From a virus, in IMG/VR virus record IMGVR_UViG_3300012936_000125, positions 1 through 27,959 of that record: a stretch of DNA of 27,959 bases; one strand, 5' to 3'. Below are positions 724 through 17,939 of the stretch, one piece after another (within the stretch, counting starts at the first letter, position 1; each line of letters starts with the position of its first letter). The notes under the pieces are model-generated. The model ran no database searches, was not told the origin of the DNA, and saw only the letters and a program-made list of their open reading frames with translations. A program made the position numbers and the translations under genes.

Positions 724-1125
724 GTGCCCATACAGAGGATCAGTCAAGGTTTTAAAGATGTTAGTATGACTTTTCAGACTAATCCTCTGACAAAGGACTT
801 GATTGTCTTAAAAAATGAAAATGCGATTGCAAGATCGGTAAAAAATATTGTTTTTACTGTTCCTGGAGAAAAACCTTTTAATCCAGAGTTTGGTTCTCGT
901 ATAACTGAGTCATTATTTGAAAATATTGACGACATTACAGCATCTCAAATTGAAACTGAGCTTAGAGATTCAATTAGTCGTTTTGAACCAAGAGTTTCAA
1001 TTAAAAAATTGGATGTAAATGCTAACATTGATGAAAATGGATTTGATGTCACAATAATCTATGACATCATCGGTGCAGAAGTTCTGCCACAACAATTAGA
1101 ATTCGTATTGCTACCAACCAGGTAA
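724..1125 (+). CDS. gp25: Baseplate wedge subunit gp25
   Basis: This 133-residue protein belongs to the GPW/gp25 family; T4 gp25 has 132 residues. In the baseplate it joins gp6 and gp53 at the inner wedge and nucleates sheath polymerisation. Recognisable family blocks are ARSVKNIVFTVPGEKPFNPE (T4: RSIKNSLLGI and RPFDPEFG), LFENIDDITA (T4: LFENMTPLTA) and the hallmark EPR triplet in SRFEPRV. The start is GTG. The N-terminus MPIQRIS agrees with what I recall of cyanophage gp25, and no in-frame ATG lies upstream before the promoter-like motif. The next in-frame ATG (766) would remove 14 residues. There is no Shine-Dalgarno sequence. The gene ends one base before the gp6 ATG, so the two are probably translationally coupled. 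Confidence 0.97.
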   Translation: MPIQRISQGFKDVSMTFQTNPLTKDLIVLKNENAIARSVKNIVFTVPGEKPFNPEFGSRITESLFENIDDITASQIETELRDSISRFEPRVSIKKLDVNANIDENGFDVTIIYDIIGAEVLPQQLEFVLLPTR

Positions 1126-1126
1126 A

Positions 1127-3211
1127 ATGCCACTAGTAAATTTCACAAATTTAGATTTTGAGCAGGTTAAAACCTCTCTGATAGAATATTTAAGATCTAA
1201 TTCTAATTTCACGGATTATGATTTTGAAGGTTCTAACTTATCTACAATTCTGGATGTATTAGCATACAATACGTATATTACTTCGTATAATGCTAATATG
1301 GTAGCAAACGAAGTTTTTATTGATAGTGCTACATTAAGAGAGAATGTAGTTTCATTAGCTAGAAACATTGGATATCTTCCAACCTCCAGAAAGGCATCTA
1401 CGTCCGCTATAACCTTCTTTGTTGACACAAGTAATATACAACCACCCCCAGCGTCTGTAACGCTCAATAAGGGCACTGTAGCGTCCTCTAACGGGTCGTT
1501 TGCAGGCACGTCAGGGTCTTTCTGCATCCTTGATGATGTTACGGTCCCTGTTATCAATAATATAGCAACCTTTTCAAATATTCCCATCTATGAGGGAACA
1601 TTTTTAACTAAGAATTTTACATACAATTCTCAAAACTCATTCCAAAAGTTCATTCTACCAAATGCAGGTGTTGATACTGAGTTACTTAGGGTTTCGGTAA
1701 AAAACAACGAGAACTCAACAACTTCTACAAAGTATTCTTTACAAGATAGCCTTTTTTATGTTGGATCTAATTCCAAAGTATATTATCTTCAGGAAATTGA
1801 AGATGAAAGATATGAGTTAATCTTTGGAGATGGTGTTTTTGGTAAGAAGTTAGAAGAATCTAATTATATTACTGTCAATTACATATCAACTAATGGAGAT
1901 TCTGGAAACGGAATGTCTAACTTTAGTTTTAATGGTCGATTGACATATGTAAGAGATGGAAATGAATATACGATTGGATCTGGCATCTCTCTTATAACTA
2001 CAGAGTTTAGATCAAGAGGTGGAAGTGCCATTGAATCTGTTGATTCTGTTAAAAAGTATGCACCAAGAATTTATGCATCTCAAAATAGAGCAGTCACTGC
2101 GGATGATTATGAAACTTTAATCCCTGCAAGAATATATCCAGATACTGAATCAATTTCTGTTTTTGGTGGAGAAGAAGTTGTCCCTCCACAGTATGGAAAA
2201 GTCTTTATTAGTATCAAACCAAGATTTGGTGACTTTTTACCAAATTTAATTAAAGAAAATATTAAACTAAAACTTAAAAAGTATGCTGTTTCTGGAATTG
2301 TACCAGAAATACTTGATCTTAAATATCTTTATGTTGAAGTAAGTTCAAGAGTTTACTATAACACAAACTTTGCACCATCTGCTGCTGAAGTTTCTACTAT
2401 TGTGCAAAACAATACGTCAAAATACGCAAATTCTACTGAATTAAATAAGTATGGTGCTAGATTTAAATACAGTAAGTTCTTGAAAATTATTGACGACAGC
2501 CATGAATCAGTAACCTCAAACATAACAATTGTTAGAATGAGGAGAGACTTAAGGATTGCTGCAAATGCAATTGCAGAGTATCAAATTGGTTTTGGCAATA
2601 GAATTCAAGTCATTAATAGTAATGGATTTAATATTAAAACTTCAGCATTTACTGTTTCTGGTATTGCAGGGAATGTCTACCTCTCAGATACTCCTGACTC
2701 TGATGGATTAACAGGATCTTTATTCTTATTCAGTCTTCCATCCGTTGGATCACAAAATCCAACAATTGTAAGAACGAATGTTGGATCAATTGATTACGTA
2801 AAGGGTATTATTACAATTAATGCGATTAATTTGACAGATGGAATGATAAAAGATGGTCAACCTGTTATTGAAATACAAGCAACTCCAACTTCAAATGATG
2901 TTGTTGGATTACAGGATCTTTATTTGCAACTAGATACTAGTAAGAGTACGTTTGATATGGTATCAGATCAAATTGAATCTGGAATTGATCCATCAGCATC
3001 TAATTACATAGTTTCTTCTTCTTATGCAAATGGTAATTTAGTTCGTGTTGGAGGACCAGCATCAACCGAAGTTTCTGCTACACCAGCAACTACAACAAAT
3101 AGTTCTTTTGGTGGATCTGTAGTAAGCACTTCGCAAATTTCATCTTCAGGACCTTCATCTTCAGGATCTTCATCTTCAGGATCTTCATCTTCTTCCGGCG
3201 GCGGATACTAA
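1127..3211 (+). CDS. gp6: Baseplate wedge subunit gp6
   Basis: This 694-residue protein is an orthologue of T4 gp6 (660 residues), of the gpJ-like baseplate family. gp6 dimers form the continuous ring that joins the six wedges around the hub and change shape when the sheath contracts. Blocks shared with T4 are DYDFEGSNLSTILDVLAYNT near residue 30, IGYLPTSRKA near 82, YISTNGDSGNG near 250 and VTADDYETLI near 325. The first 600 residues look complete. Two features differ from T4: a Ser/Gly-only tail in the last 40 residues coded by a 15-base tandem repeat, and a GC-rich patch at about 1435-1560 (residues about 103-145) unlike the rest of the gene. It is one base from gp25 and 17 bases from the giant gene, with an A-rich leader. 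Confidence 0.97.
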   Translation: MPLVNFTNLDFEQVKTSLIEYLRSNSNFTDYDFEGSNLSTILDVLAYNTYITSYNANMVANEVFIDSATLRENVVSLARNIGYLPTSRKASTSAITFFVDTSNIQPPPASVTLNKGTVASSNGSFAGTSGSFCILDDVTVPVINNIATFSNIPIYEGTFLTKNFTYNSQNSFQKFILPNAGVDTELLRVSVKNNENSTTSTKYSLQDSLFYVGSNSKVYYLQEIEDERYELIFGDGVFGKKLEESNYITVNYISTNGDSGNGMSNFSFNGRLTYVRDGNEYTIGSGISLITTEFRSRGGSAIESVDSVKKYAPRIYASQNRAVTADDYETLIPARIYPDTESISVFGGEEVVPPQYGKVFISIKPRFGDFLPNLIKENIKLKLKKYAVSGIVPEILDLKYLYVEVSSRVYYNTNFAPSAAEVSTIVQNNTSKYANSTELNKYGARFKYSKFLKIIDDSHESVTSNITIVRMRRDLRIAANAIAEYQIGFGNRIQVINSNGFNIKTSAFTVSGIAGNVYLSDTPDSDGLTGSLFLFSLPSVGSQNPTIVRTNVGSIDYVKGIITINAINLTDGMIKDGQPVIEIQATPTSNDVVGLQDLYLQLDTSKSTFDMVSDQIESGIDPSASNYIVSSSYANGNLVRVGGPASTEVSATPATTTNSSFGGSVVSTSQISSSGPSSSGSSSSGSSSSSGGGY
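3140..3199 (+). repeat. 15-base tandem repeat coding the Ser/Gly tail of gp6
   Basis: Four units of 15 bases start at 3140, 3155, 3170 and 3185. The second and third are identical (TCATCTTCAGGATCT), the first differs by one base and the last diverges after TCATCTTC. Each unit codes for S-S-S-G-x. Because the unit is a multiple of three, gain or loss of copies would keep the frame, so tail length may vary between isolates. Confidence 0.9.
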
Positions 3212-3228: not shown

Positions 3229-6200
3229 ATGACAGAAAAAAGAATTCAATTCAGCAATATTGTAAAGAGCCAAGTTCCAACTTATGTTGCGAATGACTTC
3301 CCGCTTATCTCAGAGTTTTTAAAGCAATATTATTTGTCGCAGGAGTTCAAGAGTGCTCCCATTGATTTAATTCAAAATATAGATCAATATATTAAACTCG
3401 ATGAACAAGCAAGTATAAACCATACTGTAGTTTTATCTGAAGATATTGATGAATTTGCAACAACCATTAATATTGATGTATCAAAGTCTCCTCAGGGAAC
3501 TCAAAAATTTCCTGATACTTATGGACTTTTAAAAATAGATGATGAAATTATTACATATACTGGAAAAACGCAATTTTCTTTTACAGGATGTATAAGGGGT
3601 TTTGTTGGAATCTCTTCATACAAAGAAACTGCAAATTCAGAGAATCTTGTATTTAATTCTACAGAATCTGCTGATCATAAAGCATCTGCAACTATAGAGA
3701 ATTTAACTTGTTTATTCTTAAAGGAATTTCTCAAGAAAACTAAAGTTCAGTTACTTCCAGGACTTTCAAATAGAACTCTATTCTCAGGTTTAGATGAAAA
3801 TAAATTCATAAAGCAATCAAAAGATTTTTATAGTAGTAAGGGAACTGACGAATCATTTAAAATTCTCTTTAAGGCATTGTATGGTGAAGATATTAAAATT
3901 CTTAGGCCAAAAGAATATCTTTTTACTCCATCAAATGCACAAAATTTAGTAACTTCAAATTTTGTTGTAGAAGGTATTCTCGGAGATCCAAAAAAATTAG
4001 AATTACAAACTATTTTTCAAGATTATCCATCAAAAGCATATACTCCAATTTACAATGTAGAAGAGATTAAGGTTGGAGCAGGAAAAACCTATTATAGACT
4101 TTCGTTTGATGGCGGATACAATAGAGATGTCGGGGTTTTTGGATCTACATATGGAGACTTTAAAGTTTCTCCAAAAACTCATGTAATTGGTAACGTATCT
4201 GCAGGATCAACTTTTATTGACGTAGATTCAACTGTTGGATTTGAAACTTCTGGAAATCTTTATGTTAAGTATCCAAATGGCATTTCCGTACAAAGTGGTA
4301 TCGTTTCATATACATCTAAAACTTTAACACAGTTCCTAGGATGTTCTAATATTGAAGAAGAAATTGTTGATGGTGATAGTGTAGGTATTAGTAGTTTTTT
4401 ATATGTTAAACCAAATCCAGATCCTGTTGCTCCCTTTGATGATGTTGAAGTAAGAGTTGGATCTATACTAACTGGATTTTCAAAACCAGAAAATGCATCT
4501 GATTTCAAAGTAGATGATACCTTTATGGTAAAATCTCTTGGTGTAAGGAATGATAACCATAAATTTAAAAATTGGGTTTACAGTAATCCAGTTCAATATA
4601 CTATTGATAAAATAGAACTTATTAGTACAACTTCACCAAGAACTTATAAACTAACTTTAAAAGCAGATCATTATTTAAAAAATGGAGATAAGTTAGAAAT
4701 TAAATCTATAACTGGATCATCAACAGATGATGCTGATGTATCTGATATTATTTCGTCAAAAGTAATAACGATTAAAACCTCAGGTAATATCAACACTAAC
4801 GGAAGATATTATATTAAAAAGAAAATTAATAAAGTAAATTCTCTTGCTTTTCCTTTTTTACAAAAGTTTCAAGCAAACGTACAAAATGTATATAAGAAAA
4901 AATATTCAAGTTCACTTTTAGTTGCATCTAATTCTTTACCCTCATATGCAGTTCAACCAATAGTTACTGGCAAAAAAGAAATAACTTTTAGTGGAACCTT
5001 TACAGGATCTACTCTCAAAATTAATAATCATGGTTTTTATACAGGAGAGGCAGTTTATTATACTCCAGAGATATCAACAACCACACTCAGTCTTGATGGA
5101 GATGATATCATCTCAACATCTATCAAATCTTCTTTGTTCACTGGCATTAGTGGTGGAGAAGGTTTATATTTTATAAAGAGAATTGATGATAATAATATTC
5201 AATTAGCAAAATCCTTAGCAAATTTATATTTTGCAAAATTTATTGTTTTAGAAGGTTCACCTACTGTTAAAAATAACAAAATTGAACCGTTTAAAAATTA
5301 TTTAAAGATTTTAGAGCCACAAAAACTTTACAGAGAACTTGCTGTTCCAACAGAAACAAATTCTCCAATAGAGACAAATCCTGGATCAACTGGGATACTT
5401 GTTAATGGTGTAGAAATTTTAAACTATAAATCAAATGATTTAATTTATCATGGTAGTATTGAAAATATTGAAGTTACCGCTCCTGGTGATAGTTTTGATG
5501 TTATTAATCCACCACATTTAAAAATAGAAGACGTTGATGGAACTGCATCTGTAGCATTAGGTACAACCTCTACAGTAGGCACTGGAGCTACTGGATTCTT
5601 AGCAGTAAGTGGCAGTTTGAGAGAAATTAGATTGCTTGATAGAGGATTTGATTATATTGAAACACCAACTGTTTCTATATCTGGTGCTAATGGCAAAAAT
5701 GCAAAAGCACAAGTTTCTATGAAGTTGGTTGATCACTCTGTAGAATTTTTCTCAGATCCAGCTTCTGCAAGAGTTGGATTAGGATCAACTCTCTCTACAA
5801 TTGGTTTTTCAACCTATCACAAATTTAGAGTTGGAGAAGAAGTTGTTTATAGAACAAATTCTCAGAGAGGTGTTGGTGGATTATCGACAGATGCAATATA
5901 TTATACTTCCATTGTAAATCCAACAACGGTCAAGCTTCATAATAGTTTGGCAGATGCTGTAGTTGGAATTAACACGGTTACGTTGACTTTCCATGGAATT
6001 GGTAAACATAATTTACAATGTATTTCTAAAAAATCAATCATTGATTCTATTAATATTATTGATAGCGGTGTAGGGTATGAAAATAAAAAAAGATCAGTCT
6101 CTGTCAGTGGTATAAACACATCTCTGAATACAATAACAATTAAAAATCATAATTATAACTCTGGAGAAATCATAAGATATTCAGTTGGAACAGGAAACAC

Positions 6201-9200
6201 TATCGGTGGTCTTATTAATGATAGGGATTATTATGTAACAAAATTAGATACAGATACTTTCAAATTATCTGAAATTGGAACAGTATCGGAAGGCAGAGAA
6301 TTTTATTATTCAACAAACCAATATGTCGATTTAATTTCAAAAGGATCAAACACTCATTACTTTAATTATAGACCAATCTCAGTAGAAGTAAAAGGAGCTG
6401 TTGGAATTTCTTCTGTTGGAACTGAAACATTTAAGGCAAGAGTTCAACCAATTGTTAGAGGAAGTGTTACCTCCGTTCACTTAGAAAACAAAGGTGTTGG
6501 ATATGGCAATAATGAAATCATTAACTTTAACAGAAAACCTGCAGTTTCTGTAGTTTCGGGGAAGAATGCACAGGTAAAACCAATTGTTACTGCAGATGGA
6601 AGAATTGTTGAGGTAGTTATAGAAAACATTGGATCAAACTATACTTCGACTCCAGATTTAGTAATAAATGGTCCTGGTATTGGCTGTGTCTTAACTCCAA
6701 TATTTAAGAATGGACAGTTATCTGAAGTTTTGGTGATAGAATCTGGGATTGGATATTCTCAAGAATCTACAACTATTGACGTAATTGCAACAGAAACAAG
6801 AGCAGACTTTAACCCAGTTCTCAAAACCTGGAGATTTAATTTATTTGAAAAATTATATCAAAATAAACAAATTAAAGATGATGATGTAGTTTTATCACCA
6901 TCGTCAAGTGAAAAATATGGCCTTCAGTGTTATCACATGTACGCTCCCAGAAAACTTAGGGAGATTATGTTCTCAGTTGGAGAGGGTGGTGAAATCTTAT
7001 TTGGATCCCCAGATCTAAAAATTGTAAATTCAGAAGAAACAGAGTTTACCGATCACTCACCAATTATTGGTTGGGCATATGATGGAAATCCAATTTATGG
7101 ACCATATGGGTACAGCAATGTTGACGGTGGTATTGTCACCTTAATGAAGTCTAGTTACAAGTTGAATTCTCAACGAGTAAATGGACCACCAATTTCGATA
7201 TATCCTCTAGGATTTTTTGTTGAAGATTATTCTTACTATGAAAATAATGATGATAGTTTCTTGGATAGAAATAATGGAAGATTCTGTATAACTCCAGAAT
7301 ATCCAAATGGAACATACGCATATTTTACAACAATAAATCCTGGCAACATCGAGTCTGCTGGATCTTTTCAAGGTTATAAGTTACCTCAGTTTCCATATTT
7401 GATTGGTGATAAGTATCAATCCAAGGCACAACAATTTAACTTTGAAAATAGTTCAAATCAAGATGATTATGATATTAATAACACAGATTGGTGTAGAAAT
7501 ACTTTTCCATACAATCTAACAGATGATGTAGAATATCCTTACATTTTTACTCCAGATAAACTAAAACAAACTGGTAAAATTATTTCTACCGGAAAAGGAA
7601 CTGTTGAAAGAATAGAAATTAAGAGTGCGGGAGAATCTTATAAAGTTGGAGATTTGGTAAACTTCTCTGATACCGATACAACAGGTTTTGGTGCGGCCGG
7701 AAAAGTTTCTTTATTGAAAGGTCGTGAAGTAACTTCTATTGTATCAAATGAAACTGTAAAATTAAACTCTATAATTATTCCATCATCAGAAAAAGGAAAT
7801 TATATTGTAGAGTCTTCCACACCTCATGGTTTTGATAATTTAGATATTGTTAGTTTATCTGGTTTGTCTACAACCTCATCTAAAATTGAAGGATCTTATA
7901 AAATTGGTGTAAGTAATGAATCATTTAGAGTGGTTGGAACTGGGACTACAGGAGTTGCTGTTGGAGCAACCTCTGTTACTGGACTAGTAACTTTCTTTGA
8001 AGTTAGAGGTGGTGATTTAACTAGATCTTCTATTGTTCCAAATGATATTTTAGGAATAGGAACTGAAAGAGTAAAGGTTTTAAATATAGACCCACTTAAC
8101 TCTAGACTTAGAGTTTTGAGAGCAGTGGATGGAACTGTTGGAGAAACTCATGCAATTGGATCAACTATAACTGAAATATCAAGAAGATTTACCATAAATT
8201 CTGGATTTAAAACTACATATGACTTTAAGAGAAATAAAGAAATTTACTTTAGTCCAGTAGAATCTATTGGACTTGGAACTGAGTCTGGTGTTGGTATTGG
8301 CACCACTATAGTATTCTCACATCCAGGAGCTGGAGCAACTCAAATCTTTATTCCTACAAAGTCAATCTTTATTAAAAATCATAATTTGAATACAGGAGAT
8401 AGTTTAACATATTCCGCTAATGGTGGACAGGGAATAGTATATAACGAATATACAAACATTGGAGCAGCTAAGACTTTAAGTGAAGGCCAAACACTCTTTG
8501 TTGCTAAGATCTCAAATGATTTGATTGGAGTTGCTACTCAAAGAGTTGGTTTAGGAACCACAGGTGAATTTATAGGTATTGGAAATACGTCAAAAACTTT
8601 GTTCTTTACAGGAGTTGGTGCTGGTACAACTCATAGTTTCACTACAAACTATTCCAATATAATTGGAGATGTAACTAAGAGAGTTGTCACTGTTACAACT
8701 AAAGAAAACCATGGAGTAACCGTAGGTCATGTAGTCTATGTTGATGTAAATCCATCTGTTGCAAGTACGTACACAGTAAAATACAATCAATCAAACAGAA
8801 GAATTTTAGTCGGCATTAACACTTTTGCTTCCTCTGGAATTAATACTACTACTAATACATTTACTATTGTAGATCATGGATATGCTAGTGGTGATAAAGT
8901 TATTCATTCAGCATCTACTCCTAGTGGCGGATTAGAAAATGATAGGATTTACTATGTGACAAAAGTTGACGCAAATAATTTTAAATTAGCTAATACTCAT
9001 TATGAATCCGTTGCATTAAAACCAACAACAATTTCAATTACATCTGCTTCTTCAGGAGAATTTGGATTAATCAATCCTCCAATTTCAGCATATAGAAGTT
9101 CTACTGTAGTATTTGATTTAACAGACTCTACACTCTCATACACAAAACAGTCAACAAATTATTCTGCGTTTAAATTAAACTTCTATACTGACAGTTCTTA

Positions 9201-12200
9201 TACTTCAAAATGGGAAAGTGATGGAAGTGATCGTACTTTTAATGTAATAAGACAAGGAACTCCCGGAATAAGTACCGATGCAAAGGTAACTGTATCCATT
9301 GGAAATGTTACCCCAGAAACTCTATTTTATAAATTAGATCCTATTACAGACAATGATCTTCCTACAGATCAAATAGAAGTTTCAATTGATACAGAAGTTG
9401 TTGGATATAATCAACTTCAATCGAAGGCTAGTCTTTTCAGTGGAAATAGAACAGTTGCGATTGCTAGAACAAATTCATTTGACTATCATTTAACAGAGGT
9501 TCCTGAAAGAAATTCTTATGTTTCAACATCGTCCTCAATTACATACACGACAGACTGTACTCATACTGACGGTCCAATTGCAAAAGTTGATGTAACTAGT
9601 AGTGGAAGAAATTATAATATTCTTCCAGAAATAACATCAATTGATTCTATCGATGGAATTAAAGCAGATTTATTTGCTGTCAGTTCCAATATTGGTAATA
9701 TTGAAAAAGTAAAACTTAATGATATTGGATATGATTTTCCAACAGATAACACACTGAAACCAAGTGCTATTTTACCACAAATTATAAAGGTAGATGCTTT
9801 TGCAAAAGTAGGAACTATTGGAATAAATTCCGCTGGAAAAGGTTATAGTTCTGCACCTAAGTTACTTGCATTTGATGGAAAAACTGGAAATTTAATAAAC
9901 GACCTAGATGTTGGATATAATCTTGGTGATACTGAAGTGACTATCTTTAGTAATACGGATGGTATTAACAATTCAGTTCCAACAATACTTCCAACTAGAA
10001 ATAGCAATGGAGTTGGAATTAGCACGGTTGGATTTAATACAGTTACTAAAGATGTGGTAATAACACTGTCAGTTGGATTCTCAGCAGATGAAGTTTTCCC
10101 ATTTGCAGTAAATGACAAAGTTATGATTGAAAACGTCAGTGTTGGCGTTGGATCTACTGGAAAAGGATTCAACTCAAAAGATTATGGATATAAATTATTC
10201 ACACTGAAATCTGTTACTCCAAATATTGGCGGAATTGGCACTGTAACTTACAATCTAACAAATGACTTAAATCATGGAGAAAATCCAGGAATTTACGATG
10301 ATATAAACTCTTCTGGAATAATCATTCCAGAAAAATTCTTCCCAGTATTTGATCCAATATTAGAAGTTGGCGATTATTTACCTGGAGAGAAAGTAACCTC
10401 AAATGGTAAAGAAGGAACTGTTCAAAGTTGGGACAGAGGAACTAAGACTTTAAGAATTCTATCAACTGATGATTTCAAAGTTAATGATAAACTACGCGGA
10501 TTAACCTCAGATTTAGCTGGTATTGCTTCGACTATAACAAACTATGAATGCTATTTTGAAGTTGGTCCTTCTACAGAAATTTTTGATGGAATTCAATCTT
10601 ATTCTGGAGTGTTAAACAGTGATCTACAAAGACTGCAAGATAGTTTCTATTATCAAAACTTTGCATATTCCTTAAAATCAAAAATTCCTTTTGATACTTG
10701 GAATGATGTCGTATCAAGTACAAATCACACAATTGGATATAGAAAATTTGCAGATCTGCAAGTAGAATCTACAAATAACCAGGCTCTTATTGTTGGTCTT
10801 TCAACAGAAACAACAGATCTTTCTATTGTACAGGATCTTGATGGATTTGTTGATACAAATTGTGTATTTGATTATGATATTGCTAGAGAAAATAATTTAA
10901 ACTTTGATCTTGAAGGTGGCGTCTTATCGGATAAAATTATTTTTGAAAATAGAGTTTTATCTGATTTTACCGAATCCTTAGGAAACCGTGTTCTTTCTAT
11001 TGATGACATAAGTCCTCAATTTAATAGCAATCCTAGATCAACAGCATTCACTGTTGTTAATACGTTCCCACTTGCCGATTTCCGCACCAGAAAATACATT
11101 ACTTACGTAAGGGATTCTAGGTTTACACAAGAAAGACAACTCATGATCGTTGATTTGATTCATGATGATTCTTTTGCATATATCAATCAATATGCAAGAG
11201 TTGAAAGTGTTTATGATCAAGGATCTTTTGATTTTGCTATTTCTGGAAGTGAAGGTCAACTTCAATTCTACCCAACTAAGTCTTCTGTTAATGATTATGA
11301 TATTACAGCAATTTCTTATAATTTAAATGATAATTTCTTGAGTACTGGAAGTACTGTTGTTGGTGGATCTGTAGTAGACTCAAGTAGTGTAGTTGTAAAT
11401 TCTGGAATATCAACAACTATTGTAAGTATTGGTGATACCTATCACTCTGCAAAAGTTCTTGTTACTATCGCTCCAGATGTAGAAAATGTTTCTTATGGAG
11501 CTACATCTACATTCAATGTAAATGAATTTGAAGCACAAGAATTAAATATTGTTCATGATGGAACTAATGTTTCTATCTTAGAGTTTGGTAAATTAACAAC
11601 AAACCTTGGCGGTTTTCCTGCTACAGGATTTGGGACTTATACCGCATATCTCTCTGGTGGGCAATTAAAACTTGACTTTAATCCCGCAGGAATTGGAACT
11701 ACAGCGGTCGTCAATACAATAGTTGTTGGATTGTCCTCTATATCAAGCGGAACAACATTTGCTGATATGAAACATGCTAGATTGGAATCCAAGACTACTG
11801 GTATTGCCTCTTCTAGTTCTCCTGTAGAAAATGTCATTGGATCTTATCCAAGTCACATTTCAGTAAGCAACGATAGATATGATGCAGCACATTTCTTAGT
11901 TCAAGTTCATGACACTACAAACAATAGATATGAATTTTTAGAATACATTATAGTTGATGATCATGTAGAAAGTGTTGCAACTCACAATACCTATGATACT
12001 GAATATGGAAATATTGAAACTCATATTGGTTTAGGTACTTTTGGTAGTAGAATCAATGTAGTTGGCACTGCAGCGACAACAGAACTTCTTTACACTCCAA
12101 TATCTGGTATCGATACCAAAGTTCATGTCTTTATGAATGCGTTGAGATTGGAAGATGATACTAAAGATGTTATTTCTCTTGTTAACGGATCTATAGAAAC

Positions 12201-15200
12201 TGGATTCGCAGAATACACGGGTACTGATAGAGATATTAAGAGATCATTCGCACTTACGCACAAGAATGATCCTATCTTTGAAAGAAATTTCTTAGGTAAT
12301 AGTAGCAGTATTGTTAATGTAGATACAAACACTATTAAACTACCAAATCACTTCTTTGTAACAGGAGAAGAACTAAGATATGTTCATGCTGGTATTGGAT
12401 CGACACAGGCTATCTCAATTACATCTACAACATTCCCATCATCTGGCATAACGACAACAAAACTTCCTGAAAGAGGGTTTTTTGCAGTTAAAGTCAATGA
12501 TAATGAAATTCAACTCGCATCAAGCGCACAAAATTCATTATTATCCACACCACAAGTTGTTGATATAAGCAGTGTTGGAATTGGAACCTCTCACAGATTT
12601 GTTTCTGTAAATCAAAATCCAAAAGTTCTGGTTGCTCTTGATAACTTAATTCAATCTCCAATTGTATCAACTTCGATTACAACCACTTTACTTGATCAGG
12701 CATTAAGCACTGATGATATCATCAAGTTTACTGGAATAACTTCTTTCTTCGGTGGAGATCTTATTAAGATTGGCAATGAAATAATGCTTATAGAAGGTGT
12801 TGGTATTGGATCTACAAATCATATAAGAGTTCGTAGATCGTGGATGGGAACACCATTAAGTGGAATAGCAACAGGTGCATTAGTTACTAAAGTAGTTGGT
12901 AATTATAATATTGTTGATAATACACTTAACTTTGTTGAAGCTCCATATGGAAATATCCCACTAGGTACATCAACAAATCCACCAGATCAAAGAGATTTCC
13001 AAGGAATATCAACAAGTTCAACTTTCCAAGGTAGATCATTCCTTAGAAGTGGTGCTCAAAATACTTCTAATGAAACTTATTATAAAAACTATGTTTTTGA
13101 TGATATTTCTCAAAACTTTACTGGAATATCAAACACATTTACCCTTACTAATCAGGGAACTAATGTCGCTGGAATTTCAAATGAAGGTGCAATTGTTCTC
13201 ATAAATGATATCTTCCAAACTTCTGGTCTTAATGATAATTATGAACTTGAAGAAAGTGTTGGAGTTACTTCAATCACCTTTGTTGGTACTGGTAGAACAA
13301 CACAGTCAGCATTCCTTGAATCAATGGGGAGAGAAGTTGGGGTTTCTAGTTTTCCAAGAGGAGGAATGATCGTTTCTGTTGGATCTAGTGAAGGATTTGG
13401 ATATCAACCTCTCGTTGCTGCAGGAGGAACTGCTACAGTATCTGCAGGAGGAACAATCTCAGCGATTTCAATCGGCAATTCTGGTTCTGGATATAGAGTA
13501 GGAATTCAAACGATTGTAAATGTTAGTGTTGGAACTACGTCAGTGACAGGTTCAAATCTGGTTGCAATAGGAACCGCATCTATTGTTAATGGTAATATTA
13601 CTGGAGTAACTATTACTAATCCTGGATCTGGATATACTACTACCAATCCACCATTTGTTGTTTTTGATTCTCCACGCTCTTATTCATCAATTCCTCTTCA
13701 GTACAGTTCTTTCTCTTCAGGAATAGGAACCGGCGCATCTATTGACATTGTAGTTGGTCAAGGATCTAGTATTATTGATTTCAACTTGACAAATACTGGA
13801 TATGGTTATGGTGATGGCGAAATTTTAACTATTCCTACTGGAAATCTTACTGGAATCCCAACAACATCATCTTTTGGTTCAACTGAGTTCCAAATTCAAA
13901 TCGAAAAAGTAATTAGAGACGAGTTTACTGGATGGTCTCTTGGTGTTCTTGAGACTTTGGATAATGTTAATTCCTTTATTGACGGGACAAGAACAGACTT
14001 CCCATTAATTAGAGCTGGGCAAAACATTGCAATTATGAAGTCTAAGGGATCTAAGATCGAATTAGATCACCTTCTTCTCATCTTTGTAAATAGCATATTA
14101 CAAAAACCTAAAGTTGCATACGAATTTAACGGAGGTTCTTTAGTAACATTTAAAGAAGCACCAAAGGTTGGTGATGATATTAAGATTGTATTCTATAAAG
14201 GAAGTGGAGATAATCTTGATGTTATTGATAGAGAGGTTATTGAAACTATCAAGTATGGTGATGAAGTAACACTAAATTATGATCAAGATAAAGGTCAAAA
14301 GTCTTATTTGCAAGAAAATGCAAGAACAATAAGCACAGTCACTTCTATAGATTCTGCAAATACTCTTCCATATTATGGACCAGGTAATACTAGAGACACA
14401 AATTTGAAAAGACCTATTACTTGGTGCAGACAGACCCAAGATAAGATTATTAATGGCCAAGAAGTTGGCAAAGATAGGGAAATCTATGAACCAGTGATTA
14501 CTCCATGTGCAAATATCATTAAATCTGTTGGTATTGGATCTACTGTCATTTATGTTGATAGACTAAGACCTCTGTTTAATCTTGAAAGTGAATCTCAAGA
14601 TGCTTCATTTAGAAATGCTGTGCAAAAACAAGTAACATTTATTTCATCTAAAGTAACTGTTGCGGCTGCAGCAACTGCTGTAGTTTCTACTGCGGGAACT
14701 ATATCTTCTGCAGTTATTTCCACTGGAGGAGTTGGTTATTCAACAACTCCTGAAGTAAGTATTGGTATGGGATCTACGAGAGCAACTGCTACCGCCATTG
14801 TTAGTGGTGGAGTTGTAACTGGAGTAGCAATCAGCAATCCAGGTGCTGGATATACCACATCAACTCCACCAAGTGTTCTTATCGCTCCTCCAACACAAGA
14901 AACAGAAACCTGCAAGGTTTTCTCTTATTCTGGAGATTCTGGTGTTGTTGTTGGATTTGGAACAACATCGATTGGATCAATAAATGAACTTATCTTAGAA
15001 TTCCACATCCCATATGATTCTGTATTGAGAAACACCGATTTGGTTGGTTCTGCAACAACATTGAGTGGAATATCTACTGGAGATTACTTTACCATATTTA
15101 ATTCTAATGTCTCTATTGGGGCAACTGGATCACCTCTCACATCTTTTGATACCTCCAATAACATAATAGGAATTACAACATCATATATTGATTCAGTATT

Positions 15201-15555
15201 CCAAGTAAAATCTGTACAAATAGTTTCTAGAAGTATCGGTGGAATATCTACCAATGTTGTAAGAATAAATTCTGGAGTTACTGGAGTATCGACCATTGGT
15301 TTTAGTTCGACTACAGAATTCTTTGATTCTGCAAACTTTACTTTTGATGATTCTGGTATATTGACTTTTGCTGGTGGAATATCTACATCAAATTACTTCG
15401 CTGAATTTAGTTGGGGTAAACTTATACTTGATTCTAGAAATAAACAACTATCGCATGAAGCAAGGACTTTGAACGGATTCTCAGGTCTATCAACTTCAGA
15501 TTCAATATCTAGAACAAGATACCTTAGATTCAAAAACAATACCCATTCAATATAA
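3229..15555 (+). CDS. Giant 4108-residue baseplate/virion structural protein in the gene 7 position, with YHYH-type domain
   Basis: An intact 12.3-kb frame codes for about 440 kDa, four times T4 gp7 (1032 residues), which holds this position after gp6. I see no clear gp7 similarity by eye. The N-terminus (MTEKRIQFSNIVKSQVPTYV) resembles cyanophage virion structural proteins. Residues 105-127 carry a DDEIITYTG...CIRGFVG block. The body is built of repeats: about fifteen copies of a module ending in G-x-G-Y (from residue 740 to 3880) and about eight 'H-G/N-x-x-x-G-D/E ... YYV-x-K-x-D-x-x-x-x-K/Q-L-A' modules (near 475, 596, 859, 968, 1526, 1713, 1877, 3034). A YHYH-type domain spans about 1225-1375 (IGWAYDGNPIYGPYGY at 1280-1295). 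Further landmarks are a YYQNFAYSLKS block near 2474 and a VNSILQKP block near 3620. No signal peptide is seen and Cys is rare. I infer a multidomain wedge or tail-fibre network protein. Coding status is certain; role is by context. Confidence 0.93.
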   Translation: MTEKRIQFSNIVKSQVPTYVANDFPLISEFLKQYYLSQEFKSAPIDLIQNIDQYIKLDEQASINHTVVLSEDIDEFATTINIDVSKSPQGTQKFPDTYGLLKIDDEIITYTGKTQFSFTGCIRGFVGISSYKETANSENLVFNSTESADHKASATIENLTCLFLKEFLKKTKVQLLPGLSNRTLFSGLDENKFIKQSKDFYSSKGTDESFKILFKALYGEDIKILRPKEYLFTPSNAQNLVTSNFVVEGILGDPKKLELQTIFQDYPSKAYTPIYNVEEIKVGAGKTYYRLSFDGGYNRDVGVFGSTYGDFKVSPKTHVIGNVSAGSTFIDVDSTVGFETSGNLYVKYPNGISVQSGIVSYTSKTLTQFLGCSNIEEEIVDGDSVGISSFLYVKPNPDPVAPFDDVEVRVGSILTGFSKPENASDFKVDDTFMVKSLGVRNDNHKFKNWVYSNPVQYTIDKIELISTTSPRTYKLTLKADHYLKNGDKLEIKSITGSSTDDADVSDIISSKVITIKTSGNINTNGRYYIKKKINKVNSLAFPFLQKFQANVQNVYKKKYSSSLLVASNSLPSYAVQPIVTGKKEITFSGTFTGSTLKINNHGFYTGEAVYYTPEISTTTLSLDGDDIISTSIKSSLFTGISGGEGLYFIKRIDDNNIQLAKSLANLYFAKFIVLEGSPTVKNNKIEPFKNYLKILEPQKLYRELAVPTETNSPIETNPGSTGILVNGVEILNYKSNDLIYHGSIENIEVTAPGDSFDVINPPHLKIEDVDGTASVALGTTSTVGTGATGFLAVSGSLREIRLLDRGFDYIETPTVSISGANGKNAKAQVSMKLVDHSVEFFSDPASARVGLGSTLSTIGFSTYHKFRVGEEVVYRTNSQRGVGGLSTDAIYYTSIVNPTTVKLHNSLADAVVGINTVTLTFHGIGKHNLQCISKKSIIDSINIIDSGVGYENKKRSVSVSGINTSLNTITIKNHNYNSGEIIRYSVGTGNTIGGLINDRDYYVTKLDTDTFKLSEIGTVSEGREFYYSTNQYVDLISKGSNTHYFNYRPISVEVKGAVGISSVGTETFKARVQPIVRGSVTSVHLENKGVGYGNNEIINFNRKPAVSVVSGKNAQVKPIVTADGRIVEVVIENIGSNYTSTPDLVINGPGIGCVLTPIFKNGQLSEVLVIESGIGYSQESTTIDVIATETRADFNPVLKTWRFNLFEKLYQNKQIKDDDVVLSPSSSEKYGLQCYHMYAPRKLREIMFSVGEGGEILFGSPDLKIVNSEETEFTDHSPIIGWAYDGNPIYGPYGYSNVDGGIVTLMKSSYKLNSQRVNGPPISIYPLGFFVEDYSYYENNDDSFLDRNNGRFCITPEYPNGTYAYFTTINPGNIESAGSFQGYKLPQFPYLIGDKYQSKAQQFNFENSSNQDDYDINNTDWCRNTFPYNLTDDVEYPYIFTPDKLKQTGKIISTGKGTVERIEIKSAGESYKVGDLVNFSDTDTTGFGAAGKVSLLKGREVTSIVSNETVKLNSIIIPSSEKGNYIVESSTPHGFDNLDIVSLSGLSTTSSKIEGSYKIGVSNESFRVVGTGTTGVAVGATSVTGLVTFFEVRGGDLTRSSIVPNDILGIGTERVKVLNIDPLNSRLRVLRAVDGTVGETHAIGSTITEISRRFTINSGFKTTYDFKRNKEIYFSPVESIGLGTESGVGIGTTIVFSHPGAGATQIFIPTKSIFIKNHNLNTGDSLTYSANGGQGIVYNEYTNIGAAKTLSEGQTLFVAKISNDLIGVATQRVGLGTTGEFIGIGNTSKTLFFTGVGAGTTHSFTTNYSNIIGDVTKRVVTVTTKENHGVTVGHVVYVDVNPSVASTYTVKYNQSNRRILVGINTFASSGINTTTNTFTIVDHGYASGDKVIHSASTPSGGLENDRIYYVTKVDANNFKLANTHYESVALKPTTISITSASSGEFGLINPPISAYRSSTVVFDLTDSTLSYTKQSTNYSAFKLNFYTDSSYTSKWESDGSDRTFNVIRQGTPGISTDAKVTVSIGNVTPETLFYKLDPITDNDLPTDQIEVSIDTEVVGYNQLQSKASLFSGNRTVAIARTNSFDYHLTEVPERNSYVSTSSSITYTTDCTHTDGPIAKVDVTSSGRNYNILPEITSIDSIDGIKADLFAVSSNIGNIEKVKLNDIGYDFPTDNTLKPSAILPQIIKVDAFAKVGTIGINSAGKGYSSAPKLLAFDGKTGNLINDLDVGYNLGDTEVTIFSNTDGINNSVPTILPTRNSNGVGISTVGFNTVTKDVVITLSVGFSADEVFPFAVNDKVMIENVSVGVGSTGKGFNSKDYGYKLFTLKSVTPNIGGIGTVTYNLTNDLNHGENPGIYDDINSSGIIIPEKFFPVFDPILEVGDYLPGEKVTSNGKEGTVQSWDRGTKTLRILSTDDFKVNDKLRGLTSDLAGIASTITNYECYFEVGPSTEIFDGIQSYSGVLNSDLQRLQDSFYYQNFAYSLKSKIPFDTWNDVVSSTNHTIGYRKFADLQVESTNNQALIVGLSTETTDLSIVQDLDGFVDTNCVFDYDIARENNLNFDLEGGVLSDKIIFENRVLSDFTESLGNRVLSIDDISPQFNSNPRSTAFTVVNTFPLADFRTRKYITYVRDSRFTQERQLMIVDLIHDDSFAYINQYARVESVYDQGSFDFAISGSEGQLQFYPTKSSVNDYDITAISYNLNDNFLSTGSTVVGGSVVDSSSVVVNSGISTTIVSIGDTYHSAKVLVTIAPDVENVSYGATSTFNVNEFEAQELNIVHDGTNVSILEFGKLTTNLGGFPATGFGTYTAYLSGGQLKLDFNPAGIGTTAVVNTIVVGLSSISSGTTFADMKHARLESKTTGIASSSSPVENVIGSYPSHISVSNDRYDAAHFLVQVHDTTNNRYEFLEYIIVDDHVESVATHNTYDTEYGNIETHIGLGTFGSRINVVGTAATTELLYTPISGIDTKVHVFMNALRLEDDTKDVISLVNGSIETGFAEYTGTDRDIKRSFALTHKNDPIFERNFLGNSSSIVNVDTNTIKLPNHFFVTGEELRYVHAGIGSTQAISITSTTFPSSGITTTKLPERGFFAVKVNDNEIQLASSAQNSLLSTPQVVDISSVGIGTSHRFVSVNQNPKVLVALDNLIQSPIVSTSITTTLLDQALSTDDIIKFTGITSFFGGDLIKIGNEIMLIEGVGIGSTNHIRVRRSWMGTPLSGIATGALVTKVVGNYNIVDNTLNFVEAPYGNIPLGTSTNPPDQRDFQGISTSSTFQGRSFLRSGAQNTSNETYYKNYVFDDISQNFTGISNTFTLTNQGTNVAGISNEGAIVLINDIFQTSGLNDNYELEESVGVTSITFVGTGRTTQSAFLESMGREVGVSSFPRGGMIVSVGSSEGFGYQPLVAAGGTATVSAGGTISAISIGNSGSGYRVGIQTIVNVSVGTTSVTGSNLVAIGTASIVNGNITGVTITNPGSGYTTTNPPFVVFDSPRSYSSIPLQYSSFSSGIGTGASIDIVVGQGSSIIDFNLTNTGYGYGDGEILTIPTGNLTGIPTTSSFGSTEFQIQIEKVIRDEFTGWSLGVLETLDNVNSFIDGTRTDFPLIRAGQNIAIMKSKGSKIELDHLLLIFVNSILQKPKVAYEFNGGSLVTFKEAPKVGDDIKIVFYKGSGDNLDVIDREVIETIKYGDEVTLNYDQDKGQKSYLQENARTISTVTSIDSANTLPYYGPGNTRDTNLKRPITWCRQTQDKIINGQEVGKDREIYEPVITPCANIIKSVGIGSTVIYVDRLRPLFNLESESQDASFRNAVQKQVTFISSKVTVAAAATAVVSTAGTISSAVISTGGVGYSTTPEVSIGMGSTRATATAIVSGGVVTGVAISNPGAGYTTSTPPSVLIAPPTQETETCKVFSYSGDSGVVVGFGTTSIGSINELILEFHIPYDSVLRNTDLVGSATTLSGISTGDYFTIFNSNVSIGATGSPLTSFDTSNNIIGITTSYIDSVFQVKSVQIVSRSIGGISTNVVRINSGVTGVSTIGFSSTTEFFDSANFTFDDSGILTFAGGISTSNYFAEFSWGKLILDSRNKQLSHEARTLNGFSGLSTSDSISRTRYLRFKNNTHSI
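6466..6789 (+). repeat. Three tandem G-x-G-Y modules in the giant protein
   Basis: Residues 1080-1187 contain three consecutive modules of about 35 residues: VTSVHLENKGVGYGNNEIIN, then IVEVVIENIGSNYTSTPDLV, then LSEVLVIESGIGYSQESTTI. The pattern is I/V-x-x-V/I-x-I/V-x-N/S-x-G-x-x-Y, then a turn and a hydrophobic strand. The alternating hydrophobic residues suggest beta strands joined by Gly turns. DNA identity between copies is low, so the duplications are old. Confidence 0.8.
9577..9882 (+). repeat. Three tandem G-x-G-Y modules, second block
   Basis: Residues 2117-2218 hold IAKVDVTSSGRNYNILPEIT, then IEKVKLNDIGYDFPTDN, then VGTIGINSAGKGYSSAPKLL. The first and third fit the module well; the middle copy is degenerate. 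The spacing resembles the block at 6466-6789, which suggests that a triple unit is a recurring structural piece. Confidence 0.7.
13366..13840 (+). repeat. Four G-x-G-Y modules near the C-terminal part of the giant protein
   Basis: The copies include IVSVGSSEGFGYQPLV, ISAISIGNSGSGYRVG (from 13456), ITGVTITNPGSGYTTTNPPF and IIDFNLTNTGYGYGDGEILT. The pair at 13456-13674 has the same two-module layout as 14701-14892, as the gp8 insertion at 18589-18840 and as 25369-25578 in the DUF4815 protein. Confidence 0.8.
14701..14892 (+). repeat. Two-module G-x-G-Y unit, last copy in the giant protein
   Basis: ISSAVISTGGVGYSTTPEVS is followed by VTGVAISNPGAGYTTSTPPS. The second half is nearly the same as the module near 13597 (ITGVTITNPGSGYTTTNPPF), with clear DNA similarity (AATCCTGGATCTGGATATAC against AATCCAGGTGCTGGATATAC), which points to a fairly recent duplication. 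Confidence 0.8.
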
Positions 15556-15558
15556 ATA
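15551..15558 (+). promoter_or_regulatory. Candidate late promoter TATAAATA before the tail fibre gene
   Basis: This is an exact match to the T4 late consensus TATAAATA. It ends 20 bases before the ATG at 15578 and contains the TAA stop (15553-15555) of the giant gene. It is the best promoter match noted in the gene gaps and would let the fibre gene be transcribed without reading through 12 kb upstream. Confidence 0.65.
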
Positions 15559-15577
15559 TTTTTAAACCCAAAGAATA

Positions 15578-17920
15578 ATGGCAAGACAGGGAATAGGGAC
15601 GGGTACATTACCCAACGATGGAACAGGCGATACCTTAAGAGCTGGTGCTGCAAAGGTTAATGATAACTTTTCCGAAATTTATACTTATTTTGGAGATGGT
15701 AACAATTTAACCTTTACTGAAGGTGGTGTTGGTATCAATACCGTAGGTGGTTCTGCTGGAACTGGCGCTACTATCCTTGACTTTCGTGGACCTGGGATTT
15801 CGGCAGTTACTGTTAATTCTGGTATTGCTACACTCCTTATCACTGGAGGAGGTGGCAGTAGTGGTGTTATAGTTCAAGATGAGGGTAGTACACTACCAAC
15901 AACTGCCACTACATTGAACTTTGTAGGTAGTGCAGTTGCTGCAAGTGGAACTGGAGCAACTAAAACTATCACCATTGCTGGAGGTGGTACTCCTTATACT
16001 AATAGTGACGTTGATACACATTTAAACGTAGGGTCTGCAACTACCAATCAAATTTTGAGTTGGACTGGTAGTGATTATGCATGGGTTACTGATCAAACAG
16101 GTGGTGGTAGTGGAATTGACACTAGTGATGTAAGAACAAACTCCTTAGAAGTTTATACTGGTGTAAGCACATTCGTTGGTTATGCGGCTACTTTTGCTGC
16201 TCAGTTCTCTGGCAATATCTTTATTGATGCTGGTGTTTATGCAATGTTTGGTAACACTATTGACAAATTTTCAATTAGAAATACTACAGGAAAGAGTCAA
16301 TTAATTAGCGGACAAAATGGTGGAAATGTTGAGATTCTTTCACAACAAAGTGGAAGTGTAATTAAAATTGGTAAGTACTCTGGTGGCGCAAACGATATTG
16401 CACTGTTTACGGTTGATGCAGGCGTTGAGCTTTTCCACAATACTGCGAAGAAGTTTGAAACCCTTAGTACGGGTGCAACAATTACAGGAACTACTTTTTC
16501 AAATCAATTAAGTGTTTCTGGTCTTTCTACACTTTCTAATGTAACTGTTGGTGGTGCATCAACAGAAATGATTGTTGGTGGTGATTTAAGAGTTACTGGA
16601 ATTATTACCACTGGAACAGGTTCTGTTACAATTGATGGTAATACAAATGAGATAATTGTTGGCACTGGTGTTACTATTCAGGGTAATACTGGTATTGTAA
16701 GTGCCACTGAGTTTGAATCTCATCGTCTTACAATTTCCAAAAATAATGCAACAATTGCTGGAACTTCAGGAACTACTGGTAATATTAAGTTAATTGGCGG
16801 AGCTCCATTTTTCTATGATGGAACTTTCTGGAGAGAGTTTGTCCTTTCTTCTGGAACACCAGTATCAGTACCTGAAGATACTGAATGGGATAATACTATT
16901 TTTAGAAATGACTTTGATACTTCATTGACAGATCAAAGATTTGGACAAACAATTTATGTTGGTACTAGTAATGTTGATTTGGTTACATCGCCAGTTAAGA
17001 TTGGTACAAAATCAGCAAGAATTGGATATCCAAATAATGGAAGTTTGTTGTATTCAAAGAGAAGTGAATATGATTTTACAGGTACATGGACTATAGAAGG
17101 TTGGTTCTATCTGGATGGAAATCCCGCTGGAACAAACGTCAATGCAACACCATTAGTTTTTCACACAGGCACGCATATTTATACTTTTGGACTTGCTGTA
17201 GACTATTTAAACGGCGTTATTAATTTTAGATGGTACAATAACCAATCCTCTACTCATAGTTTTGCATCCACCACCAATGGAACTTTATTAGGAGCATACG
17301 CCGCCGGCATCCTTAATGGTGTATGGTGTCATCTTGCTCTTACTAGGAACGCAACAACTGGAGCACTTCACCTCTTTGTAAATGGTGTTGAGAGTAATAA
17401 TACTTCTTCAAATCAAGTTGTTGATAATGATATACCAGCATTCCAAAATGGTTATGAACTTGCTTTTGGATATGCTAAATTAAGCAGCACTAATGCTATT
17501 TACATGGATGGATTCATCGATGATGTAAGAATATCTACTGTTGAGAGATACACAGCTAATTTCACTCCACCAACAACTGCATTACCAATTACTGGTACTG
17601 CCGGAACAACATATGTACTCCCAGGTAGTTATCAAGGTGAAGTTGCACTTGGAACGACTACTGCAACTTGGACGGGAGACACAGGAGTAACTGCAAGTCG
17701 TGTTGCTGCTGGTCAATATAGACTTACCTTTGCTAGCAACTATAACAACTCTACTGATTATGTTGTTAATGCTACTATGAATGACCATGTACCAGTGACC
17801 ACAGCTATTGGTATTGGTGTTAGTAGATTTACCTCACATGCTGATTTCTTTGTGAATAGGGTAAGTGATGGTGTCGGTATACAATCAGGTAGTCTGGCAA
17901 TAGATGTCCAGAAAAAGTGA
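15578..17920 (+). CDS. Tail fibre / adhesin with LamG (concanavalin A-like) domain
   Basis: A 780-residue virion protein. The N-terminus carries the motif LPNDGTGDTLRAGAAKVNDNF (residues about 10-31), a piece common at the start of phage tail fibres and thought to serve attachment. Residues about 35-440 are Gly/Thr/Val-rich beta repeats typical of fibre shafts. Residues about 442-665 form a LamG_3/concanavalin A-like domain with the expected marks: WTIEGWFYLDG, WCHLALTRN, LHLFVNGVE, and DGFIDDVRIS followed by RYTANFTPP. LamG domains commonly bind glycans or surface proteins, so this is a good candidate for host recognition. The last 100 residues are a separate beta-rich tail. It lies between the giant gene and gp8, under its own late-promoter-like motif. 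The target and whether it is a long or short fibre cannot be seen. Confidence 0.9.
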   Translation: MARQGIGTGTLPNDGTGDTLRAGAAKVNDNFSEIYTYFGDGNNLTFTEGGVGINTVGGSAGTGATILDFRGPGISAVTVNSGIATLLITGGGGSSGVIVQDEGSTLPTTATTLNFVGSAVAASGTGATKTITIAGGGTPYTNSDVDTHLNVGSATTNQILSWTGSDYAWVTDQTGGGSGIDTSDVRTNSLEVYTGVSTFVGYAATFAAQFSGNIFIDAGVYAMFGNTIDKFSIRNTTGKSQLISGQNGGNVEILSQQSGSVIKIGKYSGGANDIALFTVDAGVELFHNTAKKFETLSTGATITGTTFSNQLSVSGLSTLSNVTVGGASTEMIVGGDLRVTGIITTGTGSVTIDGNTNEIIVGTGVTIQGNTGIVSATEFESHRLTISKNNATIAGTSGTTGNIKLIGGAPFFYDGTFWREFVLSSGTPVSVPEDTEWDNTIFRNDFDTSLTDQRFGQTIYVGTSNVDLVTSPVKIGTKSARIGYPNNGSLLYSKRSEYDFTGTWTIEGWFYLDGNPAGTNVNATPLVFHTGTHIYTFGLAVDYLNGVINFRWYNNQSSTHSFASTTNGTLLGAYAAGILNGVWCHLALTRNATTGALHLFVNGVESNNTSSNQVVDNDIPAFQNGYELAFGYAKLSSTNAIYMDGFIDDVRISTVERYTANFTPPTTALPITGTAGTTYVLPGSYQGEVALGTTTATWTGDTGVTASRVAAGQYRLTFASNYNNSTDYVVNATMNDHVPVTTAIGIGVSRFTSHADFFVNRVSDGVGIQSGSLAIDVQKK

Positions 17921-17931
17921 TCTTTATCCTT

Positions 17932-17939
17932 AATAAATA
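17932..17939 (+). promoter_or_regulatory. Candidate late promoter AATAAATA before gp8
   Basis: AATAAATA sits in the 38-base gap between the fibre gene and gp8, ending 20 bases before the ATG at 17959. It matches NATAAATA and has the same spacing as the other candidates. Here the upstream stop is TGA, so motif and stop codon do not overlap. Confidence 0.55.

Follow-up and report, generated by a model that had tools for sequence, protein, structure and literature searches.

The 4,108-codon gene that directly follows gene 6 in a 27,959-nt viral sequence (IMG/VR record IMGVR_UViG_3300012936_000125; this whole stretch is called the window, and its positions are used throughout) most probably encodes this phage's gp7, split into two separated cores, and we put the probability of this reading at about 0.88. 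The assignment to the role of T4 gene 7, first made in an initial annotation of the DNA, agrees with the position of the gene and with its sequence, as judged from a core1 profile, hhalign, the second core and a reciprocal model. The phage is a marine T4-type, Kyanoviridae-like virus and the gene belongs to a known, already annotated cyanophage family. Its interest lies in a discontinuous gp7, in the large size range of the family and in a conflict with a published statement.

The giant frame and its locus

The gene lies within a run of baseplate and structural genes:

724..1125, + strand: gp25, baseplate wedge (PF04965, E=2e-16)
1127..3211, + strand: gp6, baseplate wedge (PF21379, E=4e-16; phrog_219)
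3229..15555, + strand: giant baseplate wedge gene of the gp7 type (4,108 aa, 444 kDa; phrog_2885)
15578..17920, + strand: gp9/gp10-like N-terminus on a 780-aa protein (PF07880, E=9e-8)
17959..19512, + strand: gp8, baseplate wedge (PF09215, E=2e-17)
19519..27171, + strand: VrlC-type structural protein (DUF4815), 2,550 aa (PF16075, E=2e-53; phrog_358), named from the equivalent position in S-SM2

The frame at 3229-15555 is exactly as long and unbroken as initially described, with an ATG start and zero internal stops, and the computed mass of 444.4 kDa matches the earlier figure of about 440 kDa. Six copies would amount to 2.67 MDa, in line with the baseplate load of more than 2.6 MDa claimed before, if the copy number of T4 gp7 applies. 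The placement of gp6 directly upstream was also correct (1127-3211, preceded by gp25), and orthologue records show the same locus after gp25-gp6. The Bellamy orthologue aligns across residues 1-4103 of the giant protein, and an independent metagenome contig (L105) carries a homologous, complete frame of 4,062 codons. Comparison with this contig gives a dN/dS of 0.12-0.29 in each 400-codon block. The giant frame is thus under purifying selection along its full length, which excludes chance or an annotation artefact.

As the gp9/10-like, gp8 and VrlC-type proteins are encoded by separate genes in the window, these three, at least, are not incorporated in the giant protein. This bears on the idea of a composite, in which gp7 is fused with equivalents of gp10, gp11, gp12 or short fibres, each as a recognisable unit. 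While the size and modularity of the protein would suit such a fusion, as would phage S-SSM7, where the C-terminal part is separate and a gp9/10-like gene stands between the two halves, no match to a T4 gp9-gp12 family is found inside the 4,108-residue chain, and the gp9/10-like protein and gp8 have downstream genes of their own. We therefore regard a composite as improbable and favour a single gp7 with added modules.

Several smaller features of the locus were recorded. The end of gp6 (3139-3192) consists of a tandem 15-bp unit (3.6 copies, 97% match) that encodes a serine/glycine-rich tail. TAAATA-containing sites at 692-702, 15551-15560 and 17934-17939 resemble a T4-type late promoter (TATAAATA) and sit in the short gaps before gp25, the gp9/10-like gene and gp8; across the whole window the motif is not enriched (28 found versus 46 expected). 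Between the first open reading frame and gp25 there is a short frame of ~53 codons at 514-675 (start ATGACTCCAAGT), which is shorter than the minimum lengths set in the ORF scans. The first frame itself (3-494) matches phrog_3704 'ferredoxin' with E=3e-69 and by eye is unlike a 2Fe-2S ferredoxin, so this label may be wrong.

A widespread family with an eight-fold size range

In a profile search with the whole protein, phrog_2885 'baseplate wedge subunit' matches residues 1-3440 with 3,679 bits, and the match reaches the C-terminus when the C-terminal part is searched as a fragment. The first 334 residues match 469 phage records by tblastn, nearly all of them from cyanophages and a small number from phages of Pelagibacter and Methylophilales. 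Many orthologues are already labelled 'gp7, baseplate wedge initiator' in cyanophage records; those of P-RSM4 (6,603 aa) and S-PM2 (3,048 aa) are labelled merely structural or hypothetical. Orthologues that carry the gp7 label have 4,067 (Bellamy), 4,156 (S-SM2), 4,307 (P-TIM68), 4,446 (P-HM1), 5,195 (P-SSM2) and 7,312 (P-SSM4) residues, and the close relatives of the giant protein range from 4,024 to 4,307. The family spans 896 (Melnitz) to 7,312 residues (P-SSM4), i.e. 8-fold, with HTVC008M (1,016 aa) also at the short end. Since orthologues of 4,024-7,312 residues occur in many cyanophages, 4,108 residues is an ordinary size for this family, and the initial view of the gene as an exceptional object, the most striking of the stretch, does not hold.

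The N-terminal region contains a core with homology to gp7

The N-terminal part of the gene comprises the following elements:

3229..3408, + strand: N-terminal helical segment, residues 1-60, conserved even in pelagiphage forms of ~1,000 residues
3439..3681, + strand: repC copy 1, residues 71-151, with related pieces in S-CREM2 gp122 and VrlC
3700..4128, + strand: core1, residues ~158-300, gp7 homology (T4 gp7 ~727-815)
4192..4347, + strand: repC copy 2, residues 322-373

The gp7 label needed testing because database annotation is contradicted by a published statement that these phages lack T4 gp7 and have VrlC in its stead (PMC7029224). As a direct phmmer search of the whole 4,108-aa protein against the PDB yielded chance-level matches only, profiles were required. 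We built a profile from 14 diverse N-termini (A1) and searched it against all PDB sequences; only two sequences match core1 at E<=5, and both are gp7 (5hx2/5iv5, E=6e-6; 9f4a, E=9e-6). For the contig scan, a closer alignment took the place of A1, whose N-termini are the most divergent and vary too much for that purpose. The gp7 match is further supported by hhalign of the N-terminal profile with five T4-like gp7s (96.5%, E=8e-10), which pairs residues 193-294 of the giant protein with T4 gp7 727-814, and by a 64-residue query, which alone matches gp7 of many T4-like phages (best E~1e-4). The core1 motif DFYSSKGT..SFKILFKALYGE has its T4 gp7 counterpart in DFYSTKG..SYKFLFK. Homology of core1 to T4 gp7 is thereby established at the level of sequence. 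The helical segment ahead of it is matched by HTVC008M at residues 5-42 (E=2e-8).

In the reciprocal test, a gp7 model derived from T4-like phages only scores the giant protein at 1.6e-7 and VrlC at 3.2, i.e. within the range of shuffled sequences. These values speak to the proposal that gp7 was lost in cyano- and pelagimyophages, that VrlC substitutes for it and that the giant protein occupies the gp7 locus by chance. Apart from the explicit statement in PMC7029224, this proposal draws on the records of S-PM2, P-RSM4 and HTVC008M, which name the gene 'structural' or 'hypothetical' only. Against it stand the two model scores and the restriction of the PDB matches of the core1 profile to gp7, and a faint match of VrlC to core1 fits the presence of a shared repC module in the two proteins. 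The loss of gp7 is thus strongly disfavoured and in our estimate very improbable, and VrlC, which resembles gp7 no better than shuffled sequences do, is not supported as its stand-in. We note that repC is a module common to the giant gp7 and the VrlC-type protein (19519-27171, 2,550 aa).

The N-terminal ~640-residue part of T4 gp7 was not found in the giant protein with whole-gp7 models, using hhalign and the T4-only model, and core1 starts within its first 160 residues. This part is not family-defining, because a 503-residue wedge protein of Stenotrophomonas phage Marzo likewise has no room for it. Among the Pfam models for T4 gp7 domains (Gp7_helical, Gp7_5th, Gp7_6th) none reaches E=1 on the giant protein.

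We also predicted the structure of residues 1-600, which had been proposed for comparison with gp7. The AF2 model (mean pLDDT 66.5, pTM 0.34) contains helices at residues 8-59, in a part of low confidence. In a Foldseek search the top match (7.6e-5) is a 9f4a chain of 1,031 residues, which is how long gp7 is in that structure; 5iv5_BJ comes fourth (3e-3), and superposition on gp7 is poor (TM 0.13). Given the modest model confidence and the low TM, the structural support is weak; we take the Foldseek result as supporting, not decisive. In a BFVD search the best match is the Bellamy orthologue.

A second core and the divided anatomy of gp7

A second region of gp7 homology lies more than two thousand residues downstream of core1:

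4129..10461, + strand: inter-core stretch, residues ~301-2411 (~2,110 residues), with YHYH and the majority of the repA and repB copies
10462..10848, + strand: core2, residues 2412-2540, second gp7 homology (T4 gp7 ~864-898)

Core2 carries the motif YYQ.F.YSLKS.IP...W.D.V...H..G and aligns with T4 gp7 864-898 in hhalign (85%, E=6e-6). Its search against PDB sequences is weak when taken alone, as the two matches at E<=10, both gp7, have E=0.13 and 0.41. Core2 also matches the minimal forms of the family (HTVC008M, E=7e-17; Melnitz, E=4e-15), both of which (1,016 and 896 aa) retain the two cores, and outside the N-terminus it is the sole stretch strongly common with them, repeat-type matches aside. 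In S-CREM2 gp122 (1,937 aa) core1 is found at 14-237 and core2 at 1824-1931, the very end of the protein. Core2 is thus collinear with T4 gp7, with a homology that, judged from these alignments, is weaker than that of core1. As core2 lies at 2412-2540, the comparison of residues 3500-4108 with gp7 that had been proposed would have been aimed at the wrong place.

The wedge protein of phage Marzo matches core2 with E=3e-14. In this protein (L019:4237-5748, 503 residues) the core1 motif, GxGY units and core2 follow in the same order, and it is apparently a near-minimal gp7 that bridges the T4 and marine forms.

Repeats and the YHYH module fill the inter-core stretch

The modular architecture with two repeat families that had been read from the sequence is real. 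Iterated HMMs (i-E<0.01) detect 11 copies of repA, a 26-residue 'GxGY' unit, and 7 copies of repB, a 56-residue unit, whereas a BLAST self-comparison reveals no internal repeats; repC, with 2 copies, adds a third family. Most repA and repB copies sit between core1 and core2. The modules of this region are:

5005..8991, + strand: repB copies at residues 593-660, 852-904, 962-1014, 1709-1769 and 1871-1921 (iterated HMMs)
7048..7341, + strand: YHYH domain match, residues 1274-1371 (PF14240, E=1.8e-24)

The remaining repB copies, at residues 475-531 and 3029-3097, lie beyond this interval. repA repeats also occur in gp8. PHROG labels the HTVC008M gp7 orthologue (L015:2936-5986; phrog_3465, phrog_460) 'head closure Hc2', and phrog_4406 and phrog_701 are labelled 'head and packaging' yet match gp7-type proteins. 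We rejected the Hc2 label for the giant gp7 family because the Hc2-type matches in the giant protein fall on repA, the repeat also present in gp8.

The suggested YHYH-type domain is a genuine match (87 bits versus a Pfam cut-off of 25), although it covers only columns 91-184 of the 193-column model. It carries HSPIIGWAYDGNPIYGPYG, and H1276 and D1285 are invariant in the underlying alignment (A5), in which H1236 is conserved to 96%. YHYH has been predicted to be a Zn-binding, tail-associated hydrolase with a Zn site of a histidine triad plus aspartate (PMC7824862). On this basis, and as YHYH is the most widely retained portion of the inter-core stretch, the extra modules might mainly form an enzyme arm, with YHYH as a putative metal-dependent hydrolase for breaching the cell envelope. 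However, the conserved triad plus aspartate is not found in the giant protein: H1236 is not retained in P-SSM2, S-SSM7 and S-PM2, no third histidine for a Zn site is found within residues 1171-1520, and H1276 is the only histidine kept across all YHYH-bearing sequences inspected. Moreover, YHYH was not found in HTVC008M or Melnitz, nor its core motif in S-CREM2 gp122. As an AF2 model of the region (pLDDT 63) matched no solved fold in a structure search, we do not adopt the hydrolase role; an enzyme arm seems improbable to us, and a binding or structural role for YHYH is at least as likely as a hydrolase.

The C-terminal extension is variable and separable

Beyond core2 the gene continues for another ~1,570 codons:

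10849..15552, + strand: C-terminal extension, residues 2541-4108 (~1,570 residues), absent in S-CREM2
13846..14328, + strand: residues 3540-3700, the most widely retained part of the extension (sequence comparison)

Residues 3540-3700 are retained in P-SSM2, S-T4, S-SSM7b, S-CAM9, P-HM1, P-RSM4 and P-SSM4. The conserved C-terminal section noted initially is thus seen among close relatives, with 44-60% identity over residues 3001-4000, but not throughout the family, as S-CREM2 terminates at core2 and therefore does without it; the minimal forms show repeat-type matches only.

In S-SSM7 (L007:20001-39095) the gp7 chain is encoded by two genes of 3,007 and 3,001 aa, each of which bears the annotation gp7. 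The split falls near residue 3200, and the second gene holds the distal extension, i.e. the C-terminal ~900 residues, not the gp7 cores. The distal extension is therefore separable in nature, and not every phage needs the chain to be covalently continuous. That these ~900 residues are able to be a chain of their own would also suit a protein that is made whole and cleaved in the virion, leaving a much smaller mature wedge protein. Yet frame and selection are continuous along the giant gene, and most relatives have a single gene; cleavage is in our judgement unlikely. For S-CREM2 ORF122, which sequence comparison confirms as an orthologue, mass spectrometry of purified virions has identified 91 unique peptides with 27.2% coverage (PMC10665884).

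Proposed role of the added modules

T4 gp7 is present as six monomers per baseplate (PMC3004832), and the wedge heterotrimer of T4 and type VI secretion systems (T6SS) is (gp6)2-(gp7)1 (PMC6300606). By analogy with these structures, core1 and core2 would form the wedge core with gp6, with one copy per wedge and six per baseplate, and this wedge core would bind two gp6 chains. The insertion between the cores contributes beta-rich repeats and the YHYH module, followed by the further ~1,570 residues after core2. Together these modules may build a large peripheral arm of the baseplate with surface-contact or fibre-docking parts, replacing the N-terminal domains of T4 gp7 and some outer pins; we give this role an even chance. 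A broader and more speculative view, which we consider rather doubtful, is that marine gp7 acts as a plug-in scaffold, in which a small and conserved wedge core has taken up thousands of residues at the inter-core site and the C-terminus, to a length that depends on the lineage. Six giant chains would then supply the bulk of the outer baseplate ring, for which T4 uses several separate proteins.

Discussion

The disagreement between database labels and PMC7029224 is settled by the test described here, according to which marine phages have gp7 and VrlC is unlike it. The core boundaries given here can guide structural studies. It is unusual for one wedge protein to vary 8-fold in size (896-7,312 residues), and this variation allows the role of the additional residues to be tested across phages such as HTVC008M, S-CREM2, S-SSM7 and P-SSM4.

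Among the closest known systems are Bellamy gp111, S-SM2 SSM2_097 and P-SSM2 PSSM2_111 (phrog_2885), which are full-length collinear orthologues, share YHYH and the repeat families and differ from the giant protein in sequence and length only. Bellamy gp111 is 52% and SSM2_097 47% identical to it, and PSSM2_111 has an additional ~1,100-residue insertion. S-CREM2 gp122 likewise has both cores and repA, but with 1,937 residues it terminates at core2, without the C-terminal extension. Pelagibacter phage HTVC008M (AGE60389, 1,016 residues) and Methylophilales phage Melnitz (gp161, 896 residues) have both cores and GxGY repeats at the same locus, with YHYH, repB and the C-terminal extension not detected.

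T4 gp7 and the giant gp7 have in common the locus after gp6, as T4 gene 6 likewise directly precedes gene 7, and the order of core1 and core2. They differ in where the protein has grown: in T4 gp7 (1,032 residues) an additional ~640 residues precede the cores at the N-terminal end and the cores themselves are ~50 residues apart, whereas the giant protein has ~2,110 between the cores, compared with ~250 in the Marzo protein, and ~1,570 after core2. Thus, growth occurred between the cores and at the C-terminus here and at the N-terminus in T4. By published analogy, TssG of the type VI secretion baseplate and P2 gpI occupy the same (gp6)2-(gp7)1-type wedge position (PMC6300606).
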